From Tetmemena sp. SeJ-2015 (lineage: Eukaryota; Ciliophora; Spirotrichea; Sporadotrichida; Oxytrichidae), in contig JAJKFJ010021624.1 of assembly GCA_027382625.1 (NCBI GenBank), positions 1-64,000 of the forward strand: 64,000 bases of DNA. Direction: 5' to 3'. The position numbers and the translations under genes are program-made. The notes under the pieces were generated by a model, which searched no databases, was not told the origin of the DNA, and was given only the letters and a program-made list of their open reading frames with translations. Shown piece after piece: positions 2,983 to 47,254 of this stretch (the first letter of the stretch is position 1; each line of letters opens with the position of its first letter).

Positions 2983-3900
2983 TCATGCTAAATTTTAACC
3001 CTAAACAGGCAATCTAAAGTCTTCTAGGAAGGTGACCTTGACGTCTGTCTCATATTCTCTGAATTTTATACCTTTAAGTGCTTCCTCTATCTCAGATAAC
3101 TGAGTGTTAGGTTTCATAGGTTGCTTGATTATTACTTTGTTTACTAACTTTTTCAAAGGTTCTGATACCTTGTCTATCTTACAATGTCTTGTTGCGAATT
3201 ATATTGCATCATCTTCACTTTCACACTAGTAGTATTCCTCTGGTTTCATATCGCATTCAAGTATGATTGCAACTATAGACCAAATGTCCCACTGCACTGA
3301 ACCGTTGAGCCAAGTCTGTCTCTATGGGAAGTAGCCTGCAGTTCCTTGCACCGATGCTTCCTCAATGTTTTCTCTTCTTACAACTCTGTTGAAGTCTATG
3401 ACAGTTCTCTGACTGGTTCAAAGTTTATCATGATGTTCTCTGGCTTGAGATCTCTGTGCACGAATCCCAACTCATGCAACTCCATCACTCCTCTAACGAG
3501 GTCAGTGAGAATAGCAGTAAGCTAGTACTTGTTGCGCCTCGTGCTGAGAAATTCTCTTAGTGTGATCTCCCATTTAGGAAGGCGAATGGCGATGTAATCA
3601 TGATCGATAAGAACACCAGCAAGATGAAGAACGTACTTCAAGTTTTTGTCCCTCGCTTCTCTCAACACTGTCAGTTCGTTCGCGAACTCAAGACCTCTCT
3701 CTTCCTTCTTTACAAGGTATTCGTAAGGGAAGATCTTGTAAGCATACTCTTCTTGTATGATGGTGTCTCTTCGCTTCGCATCAGCAAGGTGGAGGTAATT
3801 TTGAACACATTGGGGTGAGTTCGGCACCATGCTTGCATGGGGGAACCGCACAAACTTCCCCCATACCGCACGTTCGGTTTCTGAGTCACTCCCTTAAAAA
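2983..3900 (-). CDS. Ser/Thr-type protein kinase
   Basis: The minus strand encodes most of a protein kinase domain. Visible blocks are a beta-3 motif EEYAYKIF with its Lys, an alpha-C helix with FANELTVLREAR, the catalytic loop FVHRDLKPENIM, a DFG-like IDFNRV (Asn in place of Gly), GTAGYFPQ in the activation segment, and SVQWDIWSIVAIILE of the F helix. It ends near KVTFLEDFRLPV, with TGA at 2983-2985. Between the catalytic loop and IDFN the frame slips once near 3403; one extra base (GTC to GGTC) restores it. The Gly-rich loop is not clear, because the 5' end enters a GC-rich hairpin region (3813-3890), so the start is uncertain. The specific kinase family is not recognised. Confidence 0.78.
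3813..3890. repeat. GC-rich hairpin with repeated ACCGCAC
   Basis: ATGGGGGAA and TTCCCCCAT form a 9-bp inverted repeat separated by about 10 nt, and the heptamer ACCGCAC occurs twice about 20 bp apart. The base composition is much more GC-rich than the surroundings. It sits at the 5' end of the kinase gene and may be coding, a structured RNA or a recombination site. Confidence 0.4.
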
Positions 3901-4084
3901 TTAAATAACTTTCTTAGTTAATTGCATTATTAAAAATCCAATTTAAATTAAATTAAATTTCTATAGTAAACCTCAATGATATCATAAATTAAACCAGAAC
4001 ATATCAGCTTCTTCTTGGTATAGACTAAAGAATTCTTTTCTTTGTGCCTCTTCTATTTATATTAGTATTATAAATTTACAATTG
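3901..4084. other. AT-rich spacer
   Basis: Spacer between the kinase gene 5' end and the inverted-repeat element. No gene seen. Confidence 0.4.
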
Positions 4085-4880
4085 AATTTCAAATTTAGAA
4101 ATAAGAAATAAATTGTTGCAAAATCATTTTATACCCCTCACCTTAAAATAATATTTTAGAGATGCTATCTTGAAAATAAGAGTGTAAATGATTAGGTTTA
4201 AGTTTAAAAACCCTGTCTTTTATTATAGTCGGATGGAAAGTAGAATACGATTAAGATGGTTAGGAAATATTTCAATTACTATTACTAGCTATTTAAGTAA
4301 ATGTATTATTCACTTCTTACATTTTAAGAATCACGTCACTCTCTTCCTCTCTGTAATCTTTCTCAATCTATTGAGAAGAAGTGTGGTAAGAAAGAGATTC
4401 CTTTGTCAAACCTGAGGCCTTTCTCCGAGAACTAAAGTATGATTGACTGTTTGATCAGGTGTCTTCTACGAAGGTGGTCAGTAGGCTAAAAGAGGAAAGA
4501 TTTTAATGGAGTGGGGAGTGAGAACGGTAAATGTACAGTGTAACTATGATAGTGAGGAAGGAAAAGCCCTCAATGGGGTTCAAACTCCTCCGGCTTGACC
4601 TATAGCTGCAGAGAGAAAGAGAGTGAAATAATTCTTAAAATGTAAGAAATGAGTAAATCGTTTACTTAAATAGCAAGTAATAGAGATGGAAATAATTCCT
4701 AACCATCTTACTCGCATTCTACTTTCCATCTGACTTCAATAAAAGACAGGGTTTTTAAATTTAAACCTAATCATTTACACTCTCATTCTCAAGTTAACAT
4801 TTCTAAAATATTATATTAAGGTGAGGGGTATAAAATGAGATGCAACGATTAATTTCTTTTTTCTAAATTTGAAAATTAAT
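4085..4880. mobile_element. Inverted-repeat element, MITE- or SINE-like
   Basis: Two arms of about 270 bp (4085-4353 and 4607-4880) are inverted copies with only scattered differences. Both arms contain the reverse-complementary blocks TTTATACCCCTCACCTTAA, TGATTAGGTTTAA, AACCCTGTCTTTTATT and GATGGAAAGTAGAAT. They flank about 250 bp of non-repeated sequence with short Pol III-like boxes, TGGTCAGTAGG near 4472 and GGTTCAAACTCC near 4577. No transposase frame is seen inside. The element separates the kinase gene from the 3' end of K+ channel copy 1. A non-autonomous foldback or MITE-type element eliminated from the somatic nucleus is the most likely reading. Confidence 0.65.
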
Positions 4881-4899
4881 ACTTATTTGATAAATAGTT

Positions 4900-6920
4900 A
4901 TTCTTTGAATATCTTGCTATGAGAACATATGCTCTCCATCTTACCCTGTGCTCTTAAATGAAAAGAGGCGGGGCATGTGGCTCTTAATTTCATCAAGATC
5001 TTTCTGCACCTGGAATATATTTCTCTTGAGCTAGTCCATTTCTTGAATAGGGTCACTTATATTTTTGAGAATTTTGGACGTCATTTAGAACTTCATTTGA
5101 TAGCTTTAGAAGCTTCTTTTTATCATCTTAATGTCGTGTCTAAGTTTTTTCTCCTAAGAAAATGTGAGTCGCTTCTCCCTGTATTTCTTTCTGAGAATTT
5201 TAAGTTTATAGGTAGATGTTAGCATTCCCACTGCATGAATTCTGAGTAGATCTTTGAGAGAGAGCCTGGACAAGAGGTTAAACGATTTCTCTTGCGCCTG
5301 ATCAAAGCTGAGTATATTATTGAGGCACACCACGAATAGTGAAACCAGCACCACTCCGATCCAGGAACAAAGGACTGTAATTGCTCTTCCTCCGTGAGAC
5401 TTGGCAAAAACATCTCCGTATCCCACAGTGGTCATAGTGATAAAAACGCACCACATGGAAGTAGTAATGTGGTAGAAATTGTTCTACACCTGCCTCTCAA
5501 ATAGCCTGATAGTGTAGGCGAAAACGAACATAGATATAAAAGTTGCTATTATTGTCACCAACCAAGAGTATTCAATCATTATAGACTTCACTGCGAACGA
5601 GCTGGTAGCCTCAACACCATAAATGCTGCAAACTCTTTAGGCTCGAGGATTCGTGTAGAAGGAGAGTTAAACCACTGCTCTTATGAAAAAATGGATTCTG
5701 CAAAATATCATAAAGCAGAGCAGCAAATCGTTTGTAACAAAGTAAATCCCTTTACTTGTGTCATTTGCATTCTCAATATAGGTAGAGCCGTATACTGAGG
5801 GATAGCTCATAACCAAAGACATTAAGCTTTCTAGTACTATCCATTTTAAAAGACCATTATCTTTTAAGTCGTAGAACCATTAAATGTCACAGTATATCTT
5901 CTTTTAAGGCTTCTACCGATCCACATATTTTTGCTTGAAATTAAAAATATACACCGAAAATAATTAATAGAAGAAAAAAATGTCTTAACTCATTAAACCA
6001 GAGACATCTAAGTATATAATTAATAAATAATTAGGTATATTTTCATATCCTTTAAGCTATTCTAATCTAATTTATTCTCGATACTTTATCGTCGCACTGA
6101 GTTGCTAAAAATTATTTTCTTGAAAATCTTGAAATTTTAAAAGCAATAAGCTTTTTTATATAATACTGATTTATAATCGTCCTATGATTTAGTCTTTAGC
6201 CACTACAAGTACAATAGATTACTAGCCAGTATCGACAAAACTAAATTCTATTTAATTATGGGTAAAAATTACTTAAAAATGCAGTGGAACAGTTAGCAAT
6301 AATGAGCATGGTAATGATATGATCCTTCATTAAATCATCTAAATTATAGAAGTAGTTTATTTCTGAGGCTATGATGGTGCATCCTATTCCTAGAATTGCA
6401 AAGTAGCAAGAAATAATCTCAGAAATTTTCTTTTTGCTAAATGCGATATTGCTTATCCTCACCTAATCCTGTGCTATCATTCTCATTTCGTCAATATCAT
6501 TATAACCTAAACAAAAGTTTAATTAACTAAATTTGTAGTAAGATGTCCCCTGTCTACCACATCAACTCCTCCATCAAAGATGTCATCGATTTTGTTCTCT
6601 GATATTTATTTTTTCTTATTAGGGCTTTCTCTAAACAAAAAATTTGAAATAAGCAGCAACAACTTACTCTTTATCCTCTTTGGCTATTTTTATTTGCTGG
6701 ATCTTAAAAATAAATATCACTAGCCCAGATAGGGATAGAGGATTGCTTTGTGGTGGACCTTGCTCGTTAATTCTAGGAAGGTCTTGTTGATTTTAGTCCT
6801 CAGAATCAACCTTGTAAGGAGCTTTTCTTCTATTTGCTGGAGATTTCCCACCAATTTCCCTCTTTTTGAACTTAAGCTCAACTAAAACATCATCAACTTG
6901 TGAGTAAAATTTTACCCTAC
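4900..6920 (-). CDS. SK-like potassium channel, copy 1
   Basis: Tandem channel paralogue encoding a six-segment K+ channel of the small-conductance type. From the 5' end: a charged N-terminus (VELKFKKREIGGKSPANRR), an S1 region ISEIISCYFAILGIGC then TIIASEINYFYN, the S2-S3 block LKWIVLESLMSLVMSYPSVY, the diagnostic FYTNPRAQRVCSIYG after S3, S5 with YTIRLFERQVQNNF, the pore filter TTVGYGD, S6 ending SLFVVCLNNIL, then a long helical cytoplasmic tail (DQLKRNIFQVQKDLDEIK) resembling an SK calmodulin-binding region. Internal frame changes between blocks imply IESs or introns. No TGA closes the frame before the inverted-repeat element, so the true 3' end lies somewhere near 4900 and is uncertain. 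It should function as a membrane K+ channel. Confidence 0.85.
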
Positions 6921-7091
6921 TCCTCCAATTAATCCATTTTACTAATTATAATAACGGTAAAATCAAATAGGAAAATTGCTATGCGAATTTAATTGAACTT
7001 GAAATATTATAGTTGCGTTATTCATATCAGTACAGATCCTATTCACATTTTATGAGCTTACAAACGATTATAAATGCATTGACTGAGTTTG

Positions 7092-8331
7092 TCAAGAGTC
7101 GCTTAGTCGTTTCTTCTCCCCTTTAGTTTTAGAAACGCCTCTGATCTTTCTCTTAATTTTTCTCGTATCGTAGTAGATGTACAGCATGGCCATTCTTATT
7201 GTGCTTACATCATCTACGATCATATCTATCGAGTTTTTGAGGGTTTCAAAGTCTGCATCTCTATCATTAATATTTCTAATTTGAGTAGATATCTTTTGGA
7301 ACTCCTGCATATGGATTCTATAGTTTCTCTTCTAAGCAATAATCTCCTTTTGATCTTAGAGTGGAGCAGACCGAGCGAGCTTCAATCTGTAGGCAGCTCC
7401 GAGGCACTTTGCTGCCTCGACTCTTAAGTCTTCTTTGGCCAGAAGTCTTTGTAAAAGCATAAATGCTTTCTTTTCTGGTGATTCGAACTCTAAGATGTTG
7501 TTCAGGGCAACCACGAACAGTGAAACATAGAATGAACCCCAAATAGCAATCACGATACCAATTAGCCTTCCCATGTGCGACATGGGATACACATCTCCAT
7601 AACCGATAGTAAGCATAGTAATCATCATGTTCCACATAGCTGTTGTAATGTGAGTGAAATTTGAATTCACATTTCTCTCGAACAAACGAAGCTAGTAACT
7701 GAAGGCAATTAGTGTCACTGGTAAAGTAGAAAACAAGATAATCCAAGAGCTTTAAATTTAATACTAATTGAATTATATATATAATAGCTGTTCTTCATAA
7801 TACATTTCAAGGCAAAGATATAATTAGCATCGGTTCCATAGATATTGCAAACTCTCTGAGCTCTGGGATCAGTGTAGAAAGAGTTATTTAGTGCCACTCT
7901 CAAGATGAATATTAACCTAGCAAATATCATCAGGCAGAGTAAGAAGTCATTCCATTGGAAGGCGATTCCTTGACTGAAGTTATTCGCTTCTTCGTAGTAC
8001 ACCTCATTATGGACAGATGGATAAGGCTAAATGGCCATAATATCTTAAAATTTATGCTTATATTACATAAGAAGGATTTCTAAGATCATCCATTTAAATA
8101 TTCCGGTGTTGAAAATATTATCTAGATCTGTGTAGAGAAGCTTAAATTTCATCCAACTTATGTAGAGCAATCTGCTGCAAACAATATTCATCACTAGAAA
8201 TGCGTTTAACAAGAAATATTTTTACTCAGAATAAATGAGGAAACATCGCAAATTATGTACATAATCTTAATCCAATCGTCAGTCTGCCCATTTTCATTAT
8301 ATGCGGCAGTCATCTCTGAGCCTATGATTGC
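7092..8331 (-). CDS. SK-like potassium channel, copy 2, N-terminal segment missing here
   Basis: Second channel paralogue. Segments in order: the end of S1 (GSEMTAAYNENGQTDDWIK), S2 (LLNAFLVMNIVCSRLLYIS), S3 with NDFLLCLMIFARL, the family block FYTDPRAQRVCNIYG, S5 SYQLRLFERNVNSNF, the pore MLTIGYGD (Ile replaces Val before GYGD), S6 SLFVVALNNIL, a helical tail (KEDLRVEAAKCLG; ADFETLKNSIDMIVDDVS) and TGA at 7092-7094. Two IESs are resolved by pointers AGCT and TTATG. The copy begins abruptly within S1 at 8331; the sequence upstream to 8457 is not N-terminal channel sequence. A 9-bp match (GCAATCATA) connects it in frame to the S1 segment at 9732-9783 of copy 3. Confidence 0.85.
7748..7785 (-). 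other. IES with AGCT pointer in K+ channel copy 2
   Basis: Direct repeats AGCT at 7748-7751 and 7786-7789. Removing 38 bp joins CIMKNS to SWIILFSTLPV in frame and restores the spacing seen in copy 1. Left in place, the insert leads to an in-frame TGA. Confidence 0.85.
8036..8065 (-). other. Stop-free in-frame IES with TTATG pointer in copy 2
   Basis: CATAA (TTATG on the coding strand) occurs at 8036-8040 and 8066-8070. The 30-bp insert is a multiple of three without TGA, so an ORF finder keeps it. Removal joins LEILLM to AIQPYPSV, matching the equal-length blocks in copies 1 and 3. Confidence 0.7.
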
Positions 8332-8457
8332 TCAATTTTATCCATTATAAAAATAATATGGTCTTTAAACTTTTTAAATAGACAAGTATAAAAGGTATTG
8401 GTGCACCTAAATTAAATTTAAGTTTAACATATCAGATATGATCAAATAGCTAAAAGC
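8332..8457. other. Spacer between channel copies 2 and 3
   Basis: AT-rich sequence between the abrupt 5' edge of copy 2 and the stop of copy 3. No channel N-terminus is present here. Confidence 0.5.
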
Positions 8458-10268
8458 TCATTCTTCAGGCTCTTCAGTTTTTATGATAGACTTTGGATTA
8501 TCTAGAATATTTTTATAGGTTTTAGGAATGCAATTTCTTATCAGGCTAATGTCATTCATGATTGAATCCACAGACATCTTGATTGTATCCATGTCTGCTT
8601 AATAGTCGGACGAGTTTCTTAGGTTCTTTCTCATTATATTGAATTAGTCAGAGCTCTGTTTGTAGTATCTCTGCAGTGCGTTAATCTCTTTAATGTTCGG
8701 TCTGGGATCATTTTTCCTTATCTTCTGAATCTTGAAAGCAGCAGAGAGCATATTTACTGCCTATCTCTTCATGTCATCTTTGTAGAGTAATCTTTAAAGT
8801 AAGTTATAGGCCTTCTACTCTGAACTATTGAAAAATAATGAATGCATCACTTACTATTGTGGTTTAGCATGTTCATGAGTGACAGAATGAACAATGAAAG
8901 CAAAAACACTCCCCAAAAACCGCAAACTACTTCTATCAATCTACCTAGATGGGAATTAATTTAAAGCTAATTATGATATTGAATTCGCATAAGTGTCTCC
9001 ATACCCTACAGTAGTCATGGTGATAAAAATATTCCACATGGCTGTTGTGATGTGGAAAAAAGTTGAGTTAACTGATCGTTCAAACAGTCTCAGCTGATAA
9101 GAGAACATTATCATGGATATTGATGTGGAAAAGATAACTAAACTTTAAATTGGTATGATCTTAAGTTATCCAAGAAATTTAAGCTTAGCAATTAGGAGTT
9201 GTTGACCATGATAGATTTTACTGCGTACATCTCATTTGCGTCCGCTCCATAAATGTCGCAAACTCTTTGAGCTCTAGGATCTGTATAGAAGGAGGTAGAA
9301 AGAATGCAGTTCACGAGGTAATGAATCCTCATGAAGATCATTAGCATGAGTAAGATATCGTTTGTATGGAAAACCACTCCAACATCATTTAAGTTGTAGT
9401 CCTCCTCATAAACTTTTTAAAACCTGTTTTGAAATTAGTAATTAAAGCTTAAGTATAGGTATGGCCATAAAGAGAAGGGTAGCATTGGATCAAAGTTATT
9501 ATGCACTCGATTACCATAGGCTTCCAGAGCCCAGTATTCAAAATATTATCATGGCGCGTAAGATATCTTTTTGTTCTCTTCCATCTCACAAAAAGTAAAT
9601 AGCCAGCTACAGTTGACAAAACTAAAGAAAACTTAACTTAAGGCAGTTCCTTACTTAAAAATAATGTGGAAACATTTGCTATTGTGTAAAATTTAAAGAT
9701 AATTATTGAGAAAATTATTAAATATGATTGCACAACCAACACCAAGCATTGCAAAGTAGAAAGATATGTACTCTGAGATCTTAAAATATATCTTCAAGCT
9801 TCTTAGAGTTTTCATCATCGCTAAGGTCTCCATAATATATTTAGGTAACTATTGTCATCACGGTTTGTATCATTAATATGATTAAATACGATAGATTTAT
9901 TTATTCTATAATTTAAATTTTTCTATCGTGTACATAGTGATGATTCCATCCTTGCTTGCATCTTAAAAGTTATAGAAGAAATTCATTTCACTGGCAACTA
10001 TTTGACAACCAACCATCAATATTCCTTTTCTGAGATCTTAGTCTAGCTGTAGGCAAAGTTACTCATTCTCACATCTTCAATAGAGGAAAGTTTGAGGTCT
10101 CCATCCACACCATCTAGTTAGTTTTCTATTTCGTCTGCATGATCTAATTTGCGCTTACCATCTACGCCTAGTAAATTAGCGGCGTTTGGCTTTGAACTAG
10201 AATTAATTAATAATTTCAAACTATTCTTACATGTCCATAGTCTTTTCAACAATATTTGCTATACCCAT
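8458..10268 (-). CDS. SK-like potassium channel, copy 3, scrambled in its 5' part
   Basis: Third channel paralogue, with TGA at 8458-8460 and the likely Met at 10268 (an alternative at 10238). The 3' two thirds are colinear but cut by small IESs: S2 (LVLSTVAGYLLFVRWKRTK), FYTDPRAQRVCDIYG, S5 SYQLRLFERSVNS, the pore TTVGYGD, HLGRLIEVVCGFWG in S6 and a helical tail ending KTEEPEE. A GT..AG intron near 9620-9650 lies before S2. The N-terminal cytoplasmic region and S1 are split between two interleaved clusters (about 9684-9833 and 9928-10104) and rejoin only in permuted order through five pointer pairs; see the separate entry. After unscrambling, the S1 region reads ISEYISFYFAMLGVGC then QIVASEMNFFYN, matching copy 1. 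Confidence 0.9.
8824..8852 (-). other. IES with CAATAGT pointer in copy 3
   Basis: ACTATTG at 8824-8830 and 8853-8859 (CAATAGT on the coding strand). Removing 29 bp deletes an in-frame TGA and joins MLNHNS to SEQKAYNLLQRLL in frame. Confidence 0.9.
8953..8980 (-). other. IES with AATTC pointer in the copy 3 pore region
   Basis: GAATT at 8953-8957 and 8981-8985. Removing 28 bp joins the filter TTVGYGDTYA to NSHLGRLIEVV, as in the uninterrupted copies 1 and 2. Confidence 0.9.
9139..9166 (-). other. IES with TA pointer before S5 of copy 3
   Basis: A 28-bp insert between TA dinucleotides. Removal gives SWIVIFSTSISM, the same length as the block in copy 2. The 2-bp pointer makes the exact boundary ambiguous. 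Confidence 0.6.
9174..9195 (-). other. IES with TC pointer before S5 of copy 3
   Basis: A 22-bp insert between GA/GA (TC on the coding strand). Removal joins IMVNNS to WIV in frame. Only the paralogue alignment supports the boundary. Confidence 0.55.
9684..10104 (-). other. Odd/even scrambled MDS cluster of K+ channel copy 3
   Basis: On the minus strand, cluster Y (10104 to 9928) holds segments 1, 3 and 5, and cluster X (9833 to 9684) holds segments 2, 4 and 6. Pointer pairs (plus-strand coordinates): ATGGAGACCT 10095-10104 and 9824-9833; TTGAAGAT 9790-9797 and 10073-10080; TAAGATCTCAGA 10029-10040 and 9772-9783; GTTGGTTGT 9732-9740 and 10005-10013; TACAC 9928-9932 and 9684-9688. Joined as 1-2-3-4-5-6 with one copy of each pointer, all junctions stay in one frame. 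They give VDGDL-SDDENSKK, LEDVRMSNFAYSQT, KISEYISFYFAMLG, VGCQIVASEMNFFY and ITMYTIANVSTLFL, aligning with colinear copy 1. Confidence 0.93.
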
Positions 10269-10862
10269 TCCCTATAAATAATATTTATTGGGAATTAATA
10301 ATCTTCATAAAAATGTAGACCTAATAAGTATAATGTCTCTTTCATTCTTGTAAGAGGAATCTCTAAAATTTTTAAAAGTCATTTTTGACACCGTATAAAC
10401 GAACTATGTGATATTTTATAATGACATTTCTGAGAATCTTTACAAACCTGAAATAAATTGTAAGAGTTTTATTTTTAATGCCATTCATGATAAAATAAGG
10501 GAACCCTCAGCTAAATTGATAGTCAATATAAAATGCTCTGATTTCAAACTTTAATGATAGATTAATTTTAACTGTCTTTAAAAACAATACTTTGCTCGGA
10601 CAAAATATACTTGGTCGTTAGCATAGCTATCTTTTAACTCTGATAAAAAACCAAAATTTTTCTCCTTAAAAATTAATGATAGAAGCAACCACTTAACATG
10701 AAGATTAAGGATAGACATTTCCAGGAATAATAATAATAATAATAACAACGCATTTTAGACGAACTAGCGTCTTGCGTGTTATATGTTAAACTTAGGGAAG
10801 CTATACAGCCACTCCCGTGTTAAACAGTCAAACAAATTAAGTCAACTGAAGTTTGAACGATG

Positions 10863-12499
10863 TCATTAGCTTTCGTAGCTTAGGTCATCACACTAATCTG
10901 ACCAATCTTCATCGTCGTCCTCGGAGTCATTTTTCTTCTCTCCTTTGAACCATGGTTATTCGTCTGGGGGTCTGGTTAGTTTCTGTTTGTATAGGTCTCT
11001 GAATCTCTCCCAATTACGTTTAGGGAGGTCAGTTATCTCATCCAGTATGTCAAGTGTCTCAACTGGGTCCCAGTCGTTGGCTATCTTGAGGATTCTTTCA
11101 GCCATGGAATCCTCGGTAATTTCCACTAAAATTGGCAAGTTGTGGAGGAGGGCCTGAATGGTTTGATAAGGACTTTTATTGGTATGGTTCTATACATAGA
11201 GAAGGAAAGTTTTAAATATCTCTATTACCTCTGGGGGTTAGTTCAGGTTATTATTGTCAATGTTGTTTTAGAGCCAGAGTTTTATTGAATGGAGGTTCAT
11301 GATTGGGTAGTGGATGAGGTCCAATCTTTTTTGTTAGAACTATGAGAGTTCATTATTCTTCTAGATATAGGCTGATTCCTACCATTTTTTCTGTTAAAGG
11401 TATTCTGGTTGGTACCATTTGAGATATTTTCCTTCTTCTGGCTATAGGTTTATTTTCTTTCAAGATCCTAGCTGAGTTGTTCTATCACCTTGTCCACTTT
11501 TCCTTTCTTGAAGAACTGGGTGATTTTTGGTTGTTACTTTTCTTCCGCGTAGACTACCTTATTGGGTTGCCCTTTGGGTTGTGTGAGGTCTACCATCTGT
11601 TATTTAATATCAGAGATGTTTGATTAAAGTTATTAAATATTAAGTTCGATTGATTAAACTTTATATTTAATAGGTTAACCCGTCGTGACGTGGCATTAAA
11701 GATAATGCGTCACCTATTATTAAGTTTATTTCTAAACTTTAATTGATTAAAGATTCACCCCTTTTTATTATTGAATAGTGGGTTAGGTTTCTTATTAAAT
11801 AGGGTTGTTCGAATCTTAATGGGGTTAAGGACCACTGGCTTTTGGTTGGTATTGTTCAAAGTGGGTCTTGTCTCTGAGTTTGCCAGCTCGGATTAGGATT
11901 TCAACGATTCCAAGGATTGTATTCTTGCGACCAGCATTAGTTTGAAGATCCCTATTGTCATTTTAGATTAGTTTAGTAAGAATATCAAGAGTTAGGGTAT
12001 CTTAAATAGCTTTCCTGAATGAGCTAAAGGTTAGAAGTAAAGAGATCCCTTTGATTAGGATGTTGTTTTTATCTGTGGGAAAGTTAGATTCCGTTGGTGG
12101 GGGATCTCTTGATTGCTTTGTGTAAGCTTTCTAATGATTTAGTCAGGGTATTAGCTTGAGGGAAGAAGTTCAGCATTTGGGATATGACTGGAATGATGTT
12201 GTTTTCAAGTTGGAGAACCATTTGCTTGTGTATTGGTTTAATGGTATGGGAAAGTTATTAACTTTCTAATTTAATACTATTTCCAGGAATAAAAACACTA
12301 AGAATAATTTGGTTATACCACTTTGTAAATATCAAATACCTCGCTAATTTTATAATTAATTATAAATAAAATAGTAATGGATGAATTTAAATTAGTTATA
12401 GCCCAATTTGAGAGGAGAATCTATTGTCATCACATAAATAATCAATAAATCATTAATAGTGTTCAACTTTGACTCAGAGTTGAACTTGTCATTATCCAT
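10863..12499 (-). CDS. Helical-repeat protein (ARM/HEAT- or TFIIS-N-like), unassigned
   Basis: Starts at Met 12499 (MDNDKFNSESKLNTINDLL) and ends after an acidic tail (DSEDDDEDWSDQ) at TGA 10863-10865. Coding blocks on the minus strand are MVLQLENNIIPVISQMLNFF near 12200, LTLDILTKLIQNDNRDLQTN near 11980, GIVEILIRAGKLRDK near 11900, a charged linker with ITQFFKKGKVDKVIEQL near 11520, then EVIEIFKTFLLYVQNHTNK and ALLHNLPILVEITEDSMAER with ILKIANDWDPVET. The pattern is all-helical with leucine spacing typical of ARM/HEAT repeats. The last block also resembles the TFIIS N-terminal (LW) fold of transcription factors. The gene is broken by non-coding pieces at about 11610-11830 and 12260-12420, probably introns or IESs. 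The family is not firmly recognised. Confidence 0.5.
11650..11750. repeat. Nested hairpin / inverted repeat
   Basis: An inner stem GTGAC..GCATTA AAGA TAATGC GTCAC (11685-11712) is nested within imperfect outer arms AAACTT..TTAATAGGT and ACCTATTATTAAGTTT. It lies in a non-coding interruption of the helical-repeat gene and could be a small eliminated foldback element. Confidence 0.45.
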
Positions 12500-23643: not shown

Positions 23644-25401
23644 TCAAAGATCATCTCCTATAACATGATCTATCATTCTGTCTATATCTTTGCTAATATG
23701 CGCAATTCTGATTATCTTTTCATGCTAGAACTCTATAGTTTTTACTGTTAAAGTCTAAATATCTAATAATACTAGAATCCCTGTCTCTCTAAATTTTGGA
23801 ATGCTTATCATCTTTATCAATCTGGAAGTTTTGGAGTTTATTTGCTAATCTTTTAGAGATCCTTCAACTTATTGAGACATTGTTTCTTCAGAGCTGTCTT
23901 CCTTGATTACTCTCCTATTTTTTTCAAGTCGATCTGCTGCAGCTGAATTCTTGATTGGTTACTCTTCATCTTAAAATTCCTAATGTATCAGCTTTTCGCC
24001 AAAAGCATCTTAATTGCCACAAAAGTAGACATGAGGAAGTTATGATATCACAAAAGGATCGTACTCTATAAAGGGATAAGATCGAAGTGTATCTGGGCAA
24101 GTGGGGCACAGATGTCTTATATCCAAAGTCATTTCCATCACTTCAATAGAGTCCGTGAAGCAAGTATACTTCTTGATGTCGTTGATGTTCTAACCAGAAG
24201 TTCCTAAAAACCTGAGCCCATTAATTTCAAACTGATTCGGATTAGGAACTTGCTAAACGTTCTTTCTCTATTAATTTAACCTACAAAATAATGAAGAGTG
24301 AAGTTGTTATTAAGGCATCAAACCACTACAGAAGTCACTATCCCCAGGCATAACATCAATATCTACTACTTGAGCTACTCTATTCAAGAATTCTTCAAAT
24401 TGATCAGTAACATCTTAGAGCTACTTGTAAACATCGTCATTTATTCTCTGTGTTCTATAAGATCCTCTATTAACCAAGTCTTAGTCATAAACTTCCTCAA
24501 TAGAATTCCCGCATATAACCATTCGTTTGATCTATTAAGAGAGTTATCTAAGGCTTCTACTTTAGCTTTGTCCTCTCAAAAATGACATTAAATTGTTCAC
24601 TGTCCCAACATTTTAAGTTTGCCCAAAATTTAAGCCTGAGACAAATGCAATGTATTGAGATGATGAATTTGACATGTCTAAATTACTTTATTTATCAGAT
24701 TCCTTATTTGCTGCTTCATTTTATAACCATAATTTCGAATTTTCCAGAAGGTAGCCCGGAAGTGGTAAGCTACTGCTTTAAAGATCTATTCCTGCTGAGC
24801 AATGACCATACACAGTAAAGTTTCCATCTTTATCTACTTATCCTAAGAAGCCTAAGATTGCTCCCGTGACAAAGCAATCAGGATTTACTAGCTTCTATGG
24901 TTTAATTTTGATTCTTCCTGAAGAATCTTCTAATACAAGATAGTCATCGGCACTACAGTATCTTTCAGTAGTCCTGTCATCTTGAATCACTCCCACAATA
25001 TTTGTCAAAATGCAAGGCTTTTTAGGCATTTCCTTAAACAAAGTTCCAATTATTACAGTTGTCTTGTTTGGCTTGATGTCAAGAATATTTTGAATGTAGC
25101 ACAATCCCTCTTCCCCATTTTAATAAGCTGGATTACTGCCCCACAGAGCATATGATTTGGAATGAACCAATTCTCTCAAAGTTGAAAGCCTTTTAAAGTA
25201 GAATTGAGAGTACTGGACTGGATCTCTTTTATCTGTCATTCTAAACATTTGGTTGAATTCCTTGTAAATTATGTTAGTGCAGTCTCTTCTCCCTAACCCT
25301 ACTCTTTGCTGTAAGCCAGGCCTTATTTTTGCAGAAAGGTCAGTATTTTGATCTTCCTATTATAGACTCAAACTCTCAAATTTTCTAAGATAAAACTTCA
25401 T
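23644..25401 (-). CDS. POLD2: DNA polymerase delta small subunit (B-subunit)
   Basis: One uninterrupted frame of about 585 codons from Met 25401 to TGA 23644-23646, with TAA/TAG as Gln and no IES. Recognisable blocks in order: the OB-fold entry YIQNILDIKPNKTTVIIGTL followed by FKEMPKKPCIL, YLVLEDSSGRIKI, YIAFVSGLNFGQT, VICGNS, the inactive phosphoesterase signature VVDIDVMPGDSDF with LMPQQQLHSSLF, NGLRFLGTSGQNI, and CPDTLRSYPF with PHVYFCGN. These match POLD2 of yeast and animals and its length. The protein scaffolds polymerase delta and links the catalytic subunit to the other accessory subunits in nuclear DNA replication. The start was chosen as the first in-frame Met before conserved sequence. 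Confidence 0.95.
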
Positions 25402-25922
25402 AATGAAAATGGTCTCAAAAAGAACTCTTAAAACCAAAATGAGATTAAATGTTCAATAAAGGTAAATAATTTATCCTCTTATTTAATTGATTTGATCATT
25501 CAAATTCTAATAGGAAAATTAAAAGAGTTAAGTGAATAGGAAATAAATTAATAGAATTTAATTATAAAAACCAGATCATTAAATTAGAATAAGGAAAGTT
25601 TAATGTTACTCCATTTGGATGAATAAAAATTAGGGCTGACTTCTAAAATCCAAGCTGTAAAATTCACAAATCCGCCAACAATGAACATATTTTGGCTCTC
25701 TATTCCTAAAAGGAATAACTTATTTAATGTAAGAGGATCTATCTCAGGAAGAAGAATAATAATCGAAACTAGAATCAGATGGTTAACCTATTCAGTGAAT
25801 CGAAAGAAGCTGCATTTAATAATTTAATATTGATTAAAAAATGAAATAGTTTTTGAGATGAAATAAAATGGTTGCAAATTTAGATAGATTGAAAATAGGA
25901 GGATATTTAGAAAGGTATTTAT
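25402..25922. other. AT-rich intergenic spacer
   Basis: Likely contains the POLD2 promoter and the 3' flank of zinc-finger gene 2. No coding seen. Confidence 0.45.
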
Positions 25923-45333: not shown

Positions 45334-47254
45334 ATGATTCCTTAAAAGCGAAAACACGCGGGAGATTCCTTGGAAACTGCGACCACTTAGTCTCAAGCCG
45401 ATTCCCAAAGACCCTCTAAACTCCAAAAGCTTAACTAATCTCTAAGCGTAGCTGATGGTTATTCTCAAATATCAACCACTATAAACTAGAAGAGCTCAAT
45501 CTAGATTGAAGATGCAGATTCTGATAGAGAACCTAAGAACAAAAAGATAAAATGGAAGACTCTCGAACATCATGGAGTTACTTTCTTCCCTGCCTATTAG
45601 CCCCATGGAGTTAGGGTTCTGTACAAAGTAAGTTCTAATCTCAATTTAAAAAATTTAAATAGGGTTAGCCTCTTGAGTTAAATCACGAATAAGAAGAAGT
45701 TTGCAACTGGTGGGCTTAAATTATCGACCAAGATTTTGCGAAGAAGGAAATCGTTCGAAAGAATTTCGAGAAGTCATTTTTAGAACTCTTTGATGCAGTA
45801 AGTTTCGAATATCCTAAGAAAATTTATAGGAGCAAAATATTTCCAGTTTCGAGGACTTTGATTTCACTCCAATTATCAATTACCTGAGAGACTATAAAGA
45901 GTAAAGAAAGAATAGATCTAATGAGGAAAAGAAAAGAGAACTAGAGGAAAAGTAAAAGGTAGACCAGTTTTATAAATACTGCCTGATTGATGGAGATTTG
46001 GAAAAGATTTCAAACTTTATGGTTGAGCCTCCTGGAATCTTTAGAGGTCGAGGAGAGCATCCTATGGCAGGCAAACTTAAGTCTCGCATCGTCCCTGAAA
46101 ATGTGACGATTAACATTGGACCTGACGATCCTATCCCCATTTGCAATATTCCTGGCCATGCTTGGAAGAAAGTCATCTCTAATCCTGAGGCAACTTGGTT
46201 GAGTCACTTTAAAGACGAGAGAGGTGAGAAGTCTAATAATGGAAAGTATGTTTTCCTAGCTGCTGAGAGTAAGATAAAGGGAGAAAATGATAAGAAAAAA
46301 TATGAAAAGGCGAGAAGGTTGAAGTAGAACATCAATTCAATTCGAAGAAACTATTAAGAGAAGATAAAATCCTAGGACTCCATTGATCAGCAATTAGGTG
46401 TTTGTACTTATCTAATTGATAAGTTGGCTCTGAGAGTAGGAAATGAGAAGGGTGAAGATGAGGCTGAAACTGTAGGTTGCTGCTCTCTCAAAGTAAAGAA
46501 TATCTAAATAGAGCCTGATTGCAAGATAACTTTGGACTTCTTAGGCAAAGACTCTATAAGATATTTGAATACAGTTGAGGTGGATCAGCACGTCTATAAG
46601 AATCTGCAGAGCTTTATGAAAGGCAAGAATGGAGACGATGATTTATTTGACAGGATTAATGCTTCCAAGCTAAATGACTACTTAAAGGAGATGATGGAGG
46701 ATTTAAGTGCGAAGGTCTTTAGAACTTACAATGCCTCAATCACTCTCTAAAACCAACTTGCAGAAAAGGACAATCTAGTTTAGGAGGGTGACAACGTTCA
46801 GAAAAAGATGGACTTTTATGAAGTATGTAATAGAGAAGTGGCAAGACTCTGTAATCACTAAAAAGAGGCTGGCAAAAATCATGATGAGTAGGTGATCAAG
46901 ATGAAGTTGGTCCTCACTGAAAAGTAATAGAGATTAAAAGACTTGGAAGCAGAGTTTGGCAAACTTAAGCGAGGAAAACCTTCAGACGATCCAAAGATGC
47001 CCAAAAATGTTGAATCATGCAAGCAATAAATTGAGAAGGCTAAGTAATAAGTTGAGATCTAAGAATCTAGAATTAGAAAGAAGGAGGATAATAAGAACTA
47101 TGCTCTAGGCACTAGCAAAATCAATTATATGGATCCTAGAATTACAATCAGCTGGTGTAAGAGGAAAGAGCTCCCTATTGAGAAAGTTTTTCAACCAACT
47201 TTGGTCAACAAATTCACTTGGGCTATGAGTATTGAACCCAATTATGAGTTTTGA
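45334..47254 (+). CDS. TOP1: DNA topoisomerase I (type IB)
   Basis: Start ATG 45334, stop TGA 47252-47254. A basic, Gln/Ser-rich N-terminus ([20 protein letters not shown]) precedes the core: [20 protein letters not shown], then after a 35-nt intron (45628-45662) [96 protein letters not shown] (catalytic Arg), [26 protein letters not shown], a coiled linker and the active-site block [19 protein letters not shown] with its Tyr, ending SIEPNYEF. Length and motif order match eukaryotic TOP1, which relaxes supercoils in the nucleus by single-strand nicking. It holds one 44-bp IES (45801-45844) that imitates an intron. Confidence 0.97.
45801..45844 (+). other. IES with AGTTTCGA pointer in TOP1
   Basis: AGTTTCGA at 45801-45808 and 45845-45852. 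Removing 44 bp gives [15 protein letters not shown] in frame. Treating the nearby GTAAGT..CCAG as an intron instead gives a premature TGA, so a DNA-level deletion is required. Confidence 0.93.

Follow-up and report, generated by a model that had tools for sequence, protein, structure and literature searches.

The hypotrich/spirotrich group of ciliates has thousands of scrambled genes (PMC9797194, PMC10901763); in Oxytricha trifallax, 5285 of 18,111 chromosomes are scrambled (PMC10901763). Odd/even patterns of scrambling give 'repeat word' pointer lists (PMC5940158), and in Oxytricha relatives the joining of the DNA is guided by template RNAs (PMC9797194). Scrambled genes are associated with local paralogy, and the duplication–decay model predicts similarity between spacers and segments (PMC9797194). 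Alternative DNA processing in which products share MDSs is known from Oxytricha and other spirotrichs (PMC4684698, PMC10901763). One account describes 69 such loci, 38 of them scrambled and 32 with common 5′ ends; 54 of the 69 have bodies that are more than 40% similar (PMC4684698). Under other criteria, 7130 O. trifallax genes show A-type processing (PMC10901763).

The locus described here lies on the minus strand of a 64-kb window (the whole stretch of DNA that was analysed). Its sequence points with high confidence to a germline gene for an SK-like K+ channel, the 5′ part of which is laid out in the odd/even order 1-3-5-2-4-6 and is predicted to be reordered by programmed DNA rearrangement. 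It resembles the odd/even genes of the hypotrichs Oxytricha and Tetmemena in its pointer list, which is the repeat word 1234512345 on one strand (PMC5940158), and in its pointers of 5–12 bp, short spacers and local paralogue cluster (PMC9797194); the tandem triplet of channel copies found here fits the association with local paralogy described in the same source. It differs from Euplotes woodruffi, in which many recent cases retain similarity between spacer and segment (PMC9797194), whereas none of the four MDS/IES exchange pairs here (spacers of 14, 6, 15 and 43 nt) resembled a decayed copy of the replaced segment above shuffles. The duplication–decay event may thus be old, or the layout may have arisen by another route. 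Odd/even scrambling and the predicted sharing of MDSs are both of known kinds, and the locus is a well-resolved new example of the first. Searches of the open-licence literature showed, among the papers listed, no description of a scrambled K+ channel, and PMC4684698 mentions neither 'potassium' nor 'channel'. The novelty implied by the original prediction is overstated, given the thousands of scrambled genes in the group (PMC9797194, PMC10901763).

Germline layout and gene model of channel A

Read along the minus strand, the segments occur as 1 (to 10095), 3 (10080-10029), 5 (10013-9928), 2 (9833-9790), 4 (9783-9732) and 6 (from 9688), all in one orientation. The two interleaved clusters in permuted order that had been proposed are thus confirmed as 1-3-5 followed by 2-4-6, and the five proposed pointer pairs were all recovered in place, each word occurring exactly twice on the minus strand (exact word count, 9501-10300). 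A pointer is present at all five scrambled junctions. The features are as follows.

10095..10267, minus strand: scrambled segment 1, which holds the intron at 10197-10230
9790..9833, minus strand: scrambled segment 2, with pointers ATGGAGACCT (5′) and TTGAAGAT (3′)
10029..10080, minus strand: scrambled segment 3, with pointers TTGAAGAT and TAAGATCTCAGA
9732..9783, minus strand: scrambled segment 4, with pointers TAAGATCTCAGA and GTTGGTTGT
9928..10013, minus strand: scrambled segment 5, with pointers GTTGGTTGT and TACAC
9455..9688, minus strand: segment 6, with TACAC at its start and a 33-nt intron (9622-9654) inside
9834..9927, minus strand: spacer of 94 nt between the odd cluster (1-3-5) and the even cluster (2-4-6)
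9824-9833 / 10095-10104, minus strand: pointer ATGGAGACCT of segments 1/2, direct repeat
9790-9797 / 10073-10080, minus strand: pointer TTGAAGAT of segments 2/3, direct repeat
9772-9783 / 10029-10040, minus strand: pointer TAAGATCTCAGA of segments 3/4, direct repeat
9732-9740 / 10005-10013, minus strand: pointer GTTGGTTGT of segments 4/5, direct repeat
9684-9688 / 9928-9932, minus strand: pointer TACAC of segments 5/6, direct repeat of 5 bp

Segments 2 and 4 are set only 6 nt apart, counted from pointer to pointer (9784-9789).

An unguided search for direct repeats in 9640-10120, with a size limit that TACAC falls below, returned five families of at least 8 nt; four of these contain the pointers, and the fifth is an unrelated AT-rich family. 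Random site pairs drawn within 8400-10300, where the real pointers were retained and generous slop was allowed, shared words of at least 12, 10, 9, 8 and 5 nt in 9, 38, 139, 400 and 10,884, respectively, of the 20,000 draws. Four of the five pointers are individually rare by chance, whereas TACAC alone would be common; it is too short for significance by itself and its junction rests on protein homology.

Joining the six segments in the order 1-6 produces a single open frame, bearing out the proposal that every junction keeps one frame; read colinearly, the frame of segments 1 and 3 runs into a TGA shortly past segment 3. The full model is a K+ channel of 491 aa (channel A, the predicted product of copy 3) that ends at a TGA stop, has no internal TGA, reads nine TAA/TAG codons as Gln and retains a single copy of each of the five scrambled pointers. 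It requires two introns and four ordinary IESs, which the original prediction had missed, as well as a further 5′ segment, S0, 2.1 kb upstream. The gene does not begin with segment 1, since S0 lies further 5′, at 12402-12499. The remaining parts of the model are as follows.

12402..12499, minus strand: S0, the 5′ segment, which probably holds the start codon (MDNDKFNSESKL...); residues 1-14 match MDQDKFNSESKL of the homologue P0001
10197..10230, minus strand: intron GTAAG...TAG of 34 nt within segment 1, the excision of which restores homology to P0001
9408..9454, minus strand: ordinary IES with pointer TAT, from frame and homologue
9139..9179, minus strand: ordinary IES with pointer TTA, from frame and homologue
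8953..8980, minus strand: ordinary IES with pointer AATTC, from frame and homologue
8824..8852, minus strand: ordinary IES with pointer AATAGT, from frame and homologue
8458..9407, minus strand: channel A segments S7-S10, including the last three IESs, with the pore TVGYGD and the stop TGA at 8458-8460

The pointers of the ordinary IESs are short, and it is the homologue and the frame that place them. S0 connects to segment 1 via TGGG (12402-12405/10264-10267) or GGG. A 9-nt AT-rich repeat was also considered, by eye, as the S0 junction and was rejected as it breaks the frame. The match of S0 to P0001 is weak on its own (E = 0.074), and the exact site of the S0 junction is provisional, as is the tail of S0 (about residues 13-27), since P0001 differs there. 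Elsewhere in the window, long uninterrupted frames carry the Pfam domains of DNA polymerase delta subunit B (23644-25452) and topoisomerase I (45794-47254); both genes seem to have few interruptions in the germline.

Homologues, paralogues and channel type

The homologue P0001 (492 aa) matched an earlier, shorter model of 471 aa with 66% identity over 100% of the query, and against the 491-aa model it has 328 identities among 482 aligned residues. It carries the source number 403340011 and no species name; we take this to be a number of the Oxytricha trifallax series. The order of P0001 is that of the joined segments, and the protein aligns without a gap over 12 residues at each of the five junctions, with 6, 12, 12, 11 and 7 identities of 12 at junctions 1-5, respectively. 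Segments 3 and 4 are identical to it at 15/15 and 13/13 residues. The four other homologues examined, which are more distant, are gap-free at four (P0004 and P0005) or three (P0006 and P0008) of the five junctions, P0004 (source lgn, a 1,617-bp contig) and P0008 being proteins that start near junction 1.

Within the window, a tandem paralogue provides a colinear comparison:

4896..6608, minus strand: copy 1, colinear tandem paralogue

The joined product had been said to align with copy 1; this is so, without a gap, for 65 codons that span junctions 2 to 5, whereas junction 1 lies outside the aligned stretch. Over these 65 codons, joined copy 3 departs from copy 1 at 14/14/40 sites by codon position, the pattern of protein-coding sequence under constraint. 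Copy 1, the C4323 and C1728 loci (97% alike and apparently alleles) and C2626 are all colinear where they match, these being few copies of a large family. The size of this K+ channel family in the same genome is indicated by 113 matches to P0008 (for example C2221, C2939, C279 and C3336), a listing that extends to E values of 5 and includes many weak matches. An element of ∼830 bp at 4068-4893 contains long inverted repeats, of 230 nt (89%) and of 53 nt (81%). It separates the final ∼25 codons of copy 1, at about 4081-4007, from the body of that gene and is probably an IES.

The original prediction called the channel 'SK-type'. In support of this, the best solved-sequence matches are SK4 and SK2 (E = 1.4 × 10^-14), and the fold predicted for P0001 (mean pLDDT 68.7) has SK2/SK4 entries at ranks 1-20 among the 50 listed, with KCNQ and other Kv channels ranking after them; the fold compared is that of the homologue and not that of channel A itself, and the r.m.s.d. 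over the whole alignment is large in all but one of the 20 SK2/SK4 entries. Against it, Ion_trans_2 is the only Pfam model above the cut-off (E = 1.7 × 10^-9), and the SK_channel and CaMBD models are absent from matches at E values of up to 1. Channel A is thus like the SK (KCa2/KCa3) channels in its GYGD filter, in its SK4/SK2 top matches and, through P0001, in its fold, but differs in that the SK_channel and CaMBD models are not matched, and we therefore term it 'SK-like' and do not file it as SK. In the P0001 model, helix 82-130 spans the stretch that is encoded by segments 2 to 5, and the helical stretch into and including S1 is spread over four scrambled pieces.

Predicted programmed rearrangement and its alternatives

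The sequence is best read as a spirotrich germline K+ channel gene that is scrambled in the odd/even manner. In agreement with this are the genetic code with TAA/TAG as Gln, the shortness of pointers and spacers, the length of the contig (220 kb) and an independent homologue that has the joined order, and the appeal of the original prediction to the classical spirotrich pattern is borne out by the order of P0001, the code and the pointers. The first species-named matches were to Stylonychia lemnae in the channel search and to Moneuplotes crassus in the topoisomerase I search; the latter had a numbered eukprot entry as its top match (78% over 98%) and also a partial lgn entry (92% over 59%). 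During formation of the somatic nucleus, the DNA would be cut and joined at the pointers, a single copy of each being kept, presumably under the guidance of template RNAs as in Oxytricha relatives (PMC9797194). The spacers would be eliminated from the DNA and the two introns would afterwards be taken out of the RNA. Three words that span joined junctions gave no match each in the same assembly.

A second contig, C3999 (25.8 kb), matches the window in five pieces at 94.8-99.6% identity, keeps the scrambled order of segments and is apparently an allele of the locus. Over 3609-10745 the two sequences differ in 29 alignment columns, none of which lies between 8872 and 10730. C3999 also lacks a repeat element that sits in the spacer between S0 and segment 1:

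10726..12276, minus strand: repeat element of ∼1.55 kb, missing from C3999

The element has an (ATT)n tail and is flanked on both sides by ATTTCCAGGAATAA, which is likely to be a target-site duplication. In the genome, 41 matches to it were listed from 40 scored of 257 candidates, and 21 of these 41, the window's own included, have at least 98% identity. Scanning of three frames of the element gave nothing at the Pfam cut-off.

That the order is merely an error of assembly is hardly credible: the DNA search did match just the contig of the window and one other, but these two contigs are 0.4 to 5% apart over five aligned pieces and differ by the 1.55-kb element, yet have the same order, and a mis-assembly would not set protein-coding joins on exact repeats. 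The colinear reading that hits a stop and the existence of colinear paralogues would also suit a pseudogene, a channel copy scattered by chance local rearrangements and never reordered. We consider this very improbable in view of the five exact repeats at junctions that homology defines, the single frame without an internal TGA, the complete identity of segments 3 and 4 to P0001 and the concentration of differences to copy 1 at third codon positions. Restoration of the order in RNA, by trans-splicing or exon scrambling, and not in DNA would be in keeping with the small GT–AG introns that the gene does have; however, a GT...AG boundary occurs at none of the five scrambled junctions in any pointer register, and splicing has no need of the direct repeat that is found at every one of them, which leaves this route with next to no likelihood.

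A 5′ module that may serve two channels

Copy 2, the remaining member of the tandem triplet, has no recognizable 5′ end and starts abruptly at GCAATCATA, a 9-mer that recurs immediately past segment 4 and its GTTGGTTGT pointer:

7092..8322, minus strand: body of copy 2 (channel B), with an intron at 8194-8225, IES pointers TTATG and AGCT and the pore TIGYGD
8323..8331, minus strand: GCAATCATA at the start of copy 2, matching the 9-mer after segment 4
9723..9731, minus strand: GCAATCATA, predicted alternative pointer, adjoining GTTGGTTGT at the end of segment 4

The word occurs three times on the minus strand of the 64-kb window and not at all on its plus strand. Joining S0-1-2-3-4 to copy 2 via GCAATCATA gives one frame of 496 residues, the first 117 of which are those of channel A. 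The match was first spotted by eye during reading of copy 2; a random identity of 9 nt in exact register at minus-strand sites occurred in 49 of 2,000,000 cases, and one in frame with 9 nt of slop in 23 of 200,000. P0008 (source jgi, a 1,580-bp contig), a protein of the copy 2 type, has this type of N-terminus in colinear form. The segments concerned are single-copy, as only the locus in the window and C3999 match them, both for the DNA and for the N-terminal protein pieces at high identity. The bodies of channels A and B share 167 of 370 aligned residues.

From these sequences it seems probable that segments S0-4 are used twice, joined either to segment 5, giving channel A, or via GCAATCATA to copy 2, giving channel B, a sharing of the scrambled module that the original prediction missed. 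The pointers GTTGGTTGT and then GCAATCATA, back to back at the end of segment 4, would choose between two tandem pore bodies, and the two channels would be the same in their cytosolic N-terminus and at the beginning of helix S1, and would diverge after that. The arrangement is like the described cases of alternative DNA processing (PMC4684698) in that two tandem paralogous bodies would each receive the same single-copy 5′ set; the pair of pointers back to back at the end of one short scrambled segment may set it apart.

It is also possible, although we favour it less, that segment 4 is unshared and that copy 2 is a 5′-truncated pseudogene or has a distant scrambled 5′ end of its own. In favour of this, copy 2 has an abrupt start, 126 bases past the stop of copy 3, and tiny scrambled pieces elsewhere would escape the searches. 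Copy 1 has ACCATCATA at the site where copy 2 has GCAATCATA, so the 9-mer match may in part be an inherited remnant of homology. A pseudogene is nevertheless at odds with a body that is open to its stop (7092), encodes a TIGYGD pore and differs from copy 3 by 157/117/239 at the three codon positions over 370 codons. A separate 5′ end finds no counterpart among the genome matches listed, 14 for the N-terminal query and 113 for the P0008 query, which include no recognizable orphan 5′ piece; in addition, homology stops exactly at GCAATCATA on either side. Counting against channel B, no second protein among the matches listed from the source of P0001 combines a P0001-like N-terminus with a copy 2-like body; P0002, from this same source, is like P0001 in both N-terminus and body.

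The locus is compact, and its segment order, its pointers, its introns and its ordinary IESs are consistent with one another, with an apparent allele and with a homologue that has the joined order. If the predicted use of one module by both channels is correct, copy 2 relies on the scrambled segments of its neighbour, a dependence that would help to explain why the layout cannot simply be lost. A switch at the level of DNA would then build two K+ channels that are alike in their N-terminus and in the beginning of helix S1; were it proved that a single scrambled module supplies both, the novelty of the locus, otherwise modest, would be greater.
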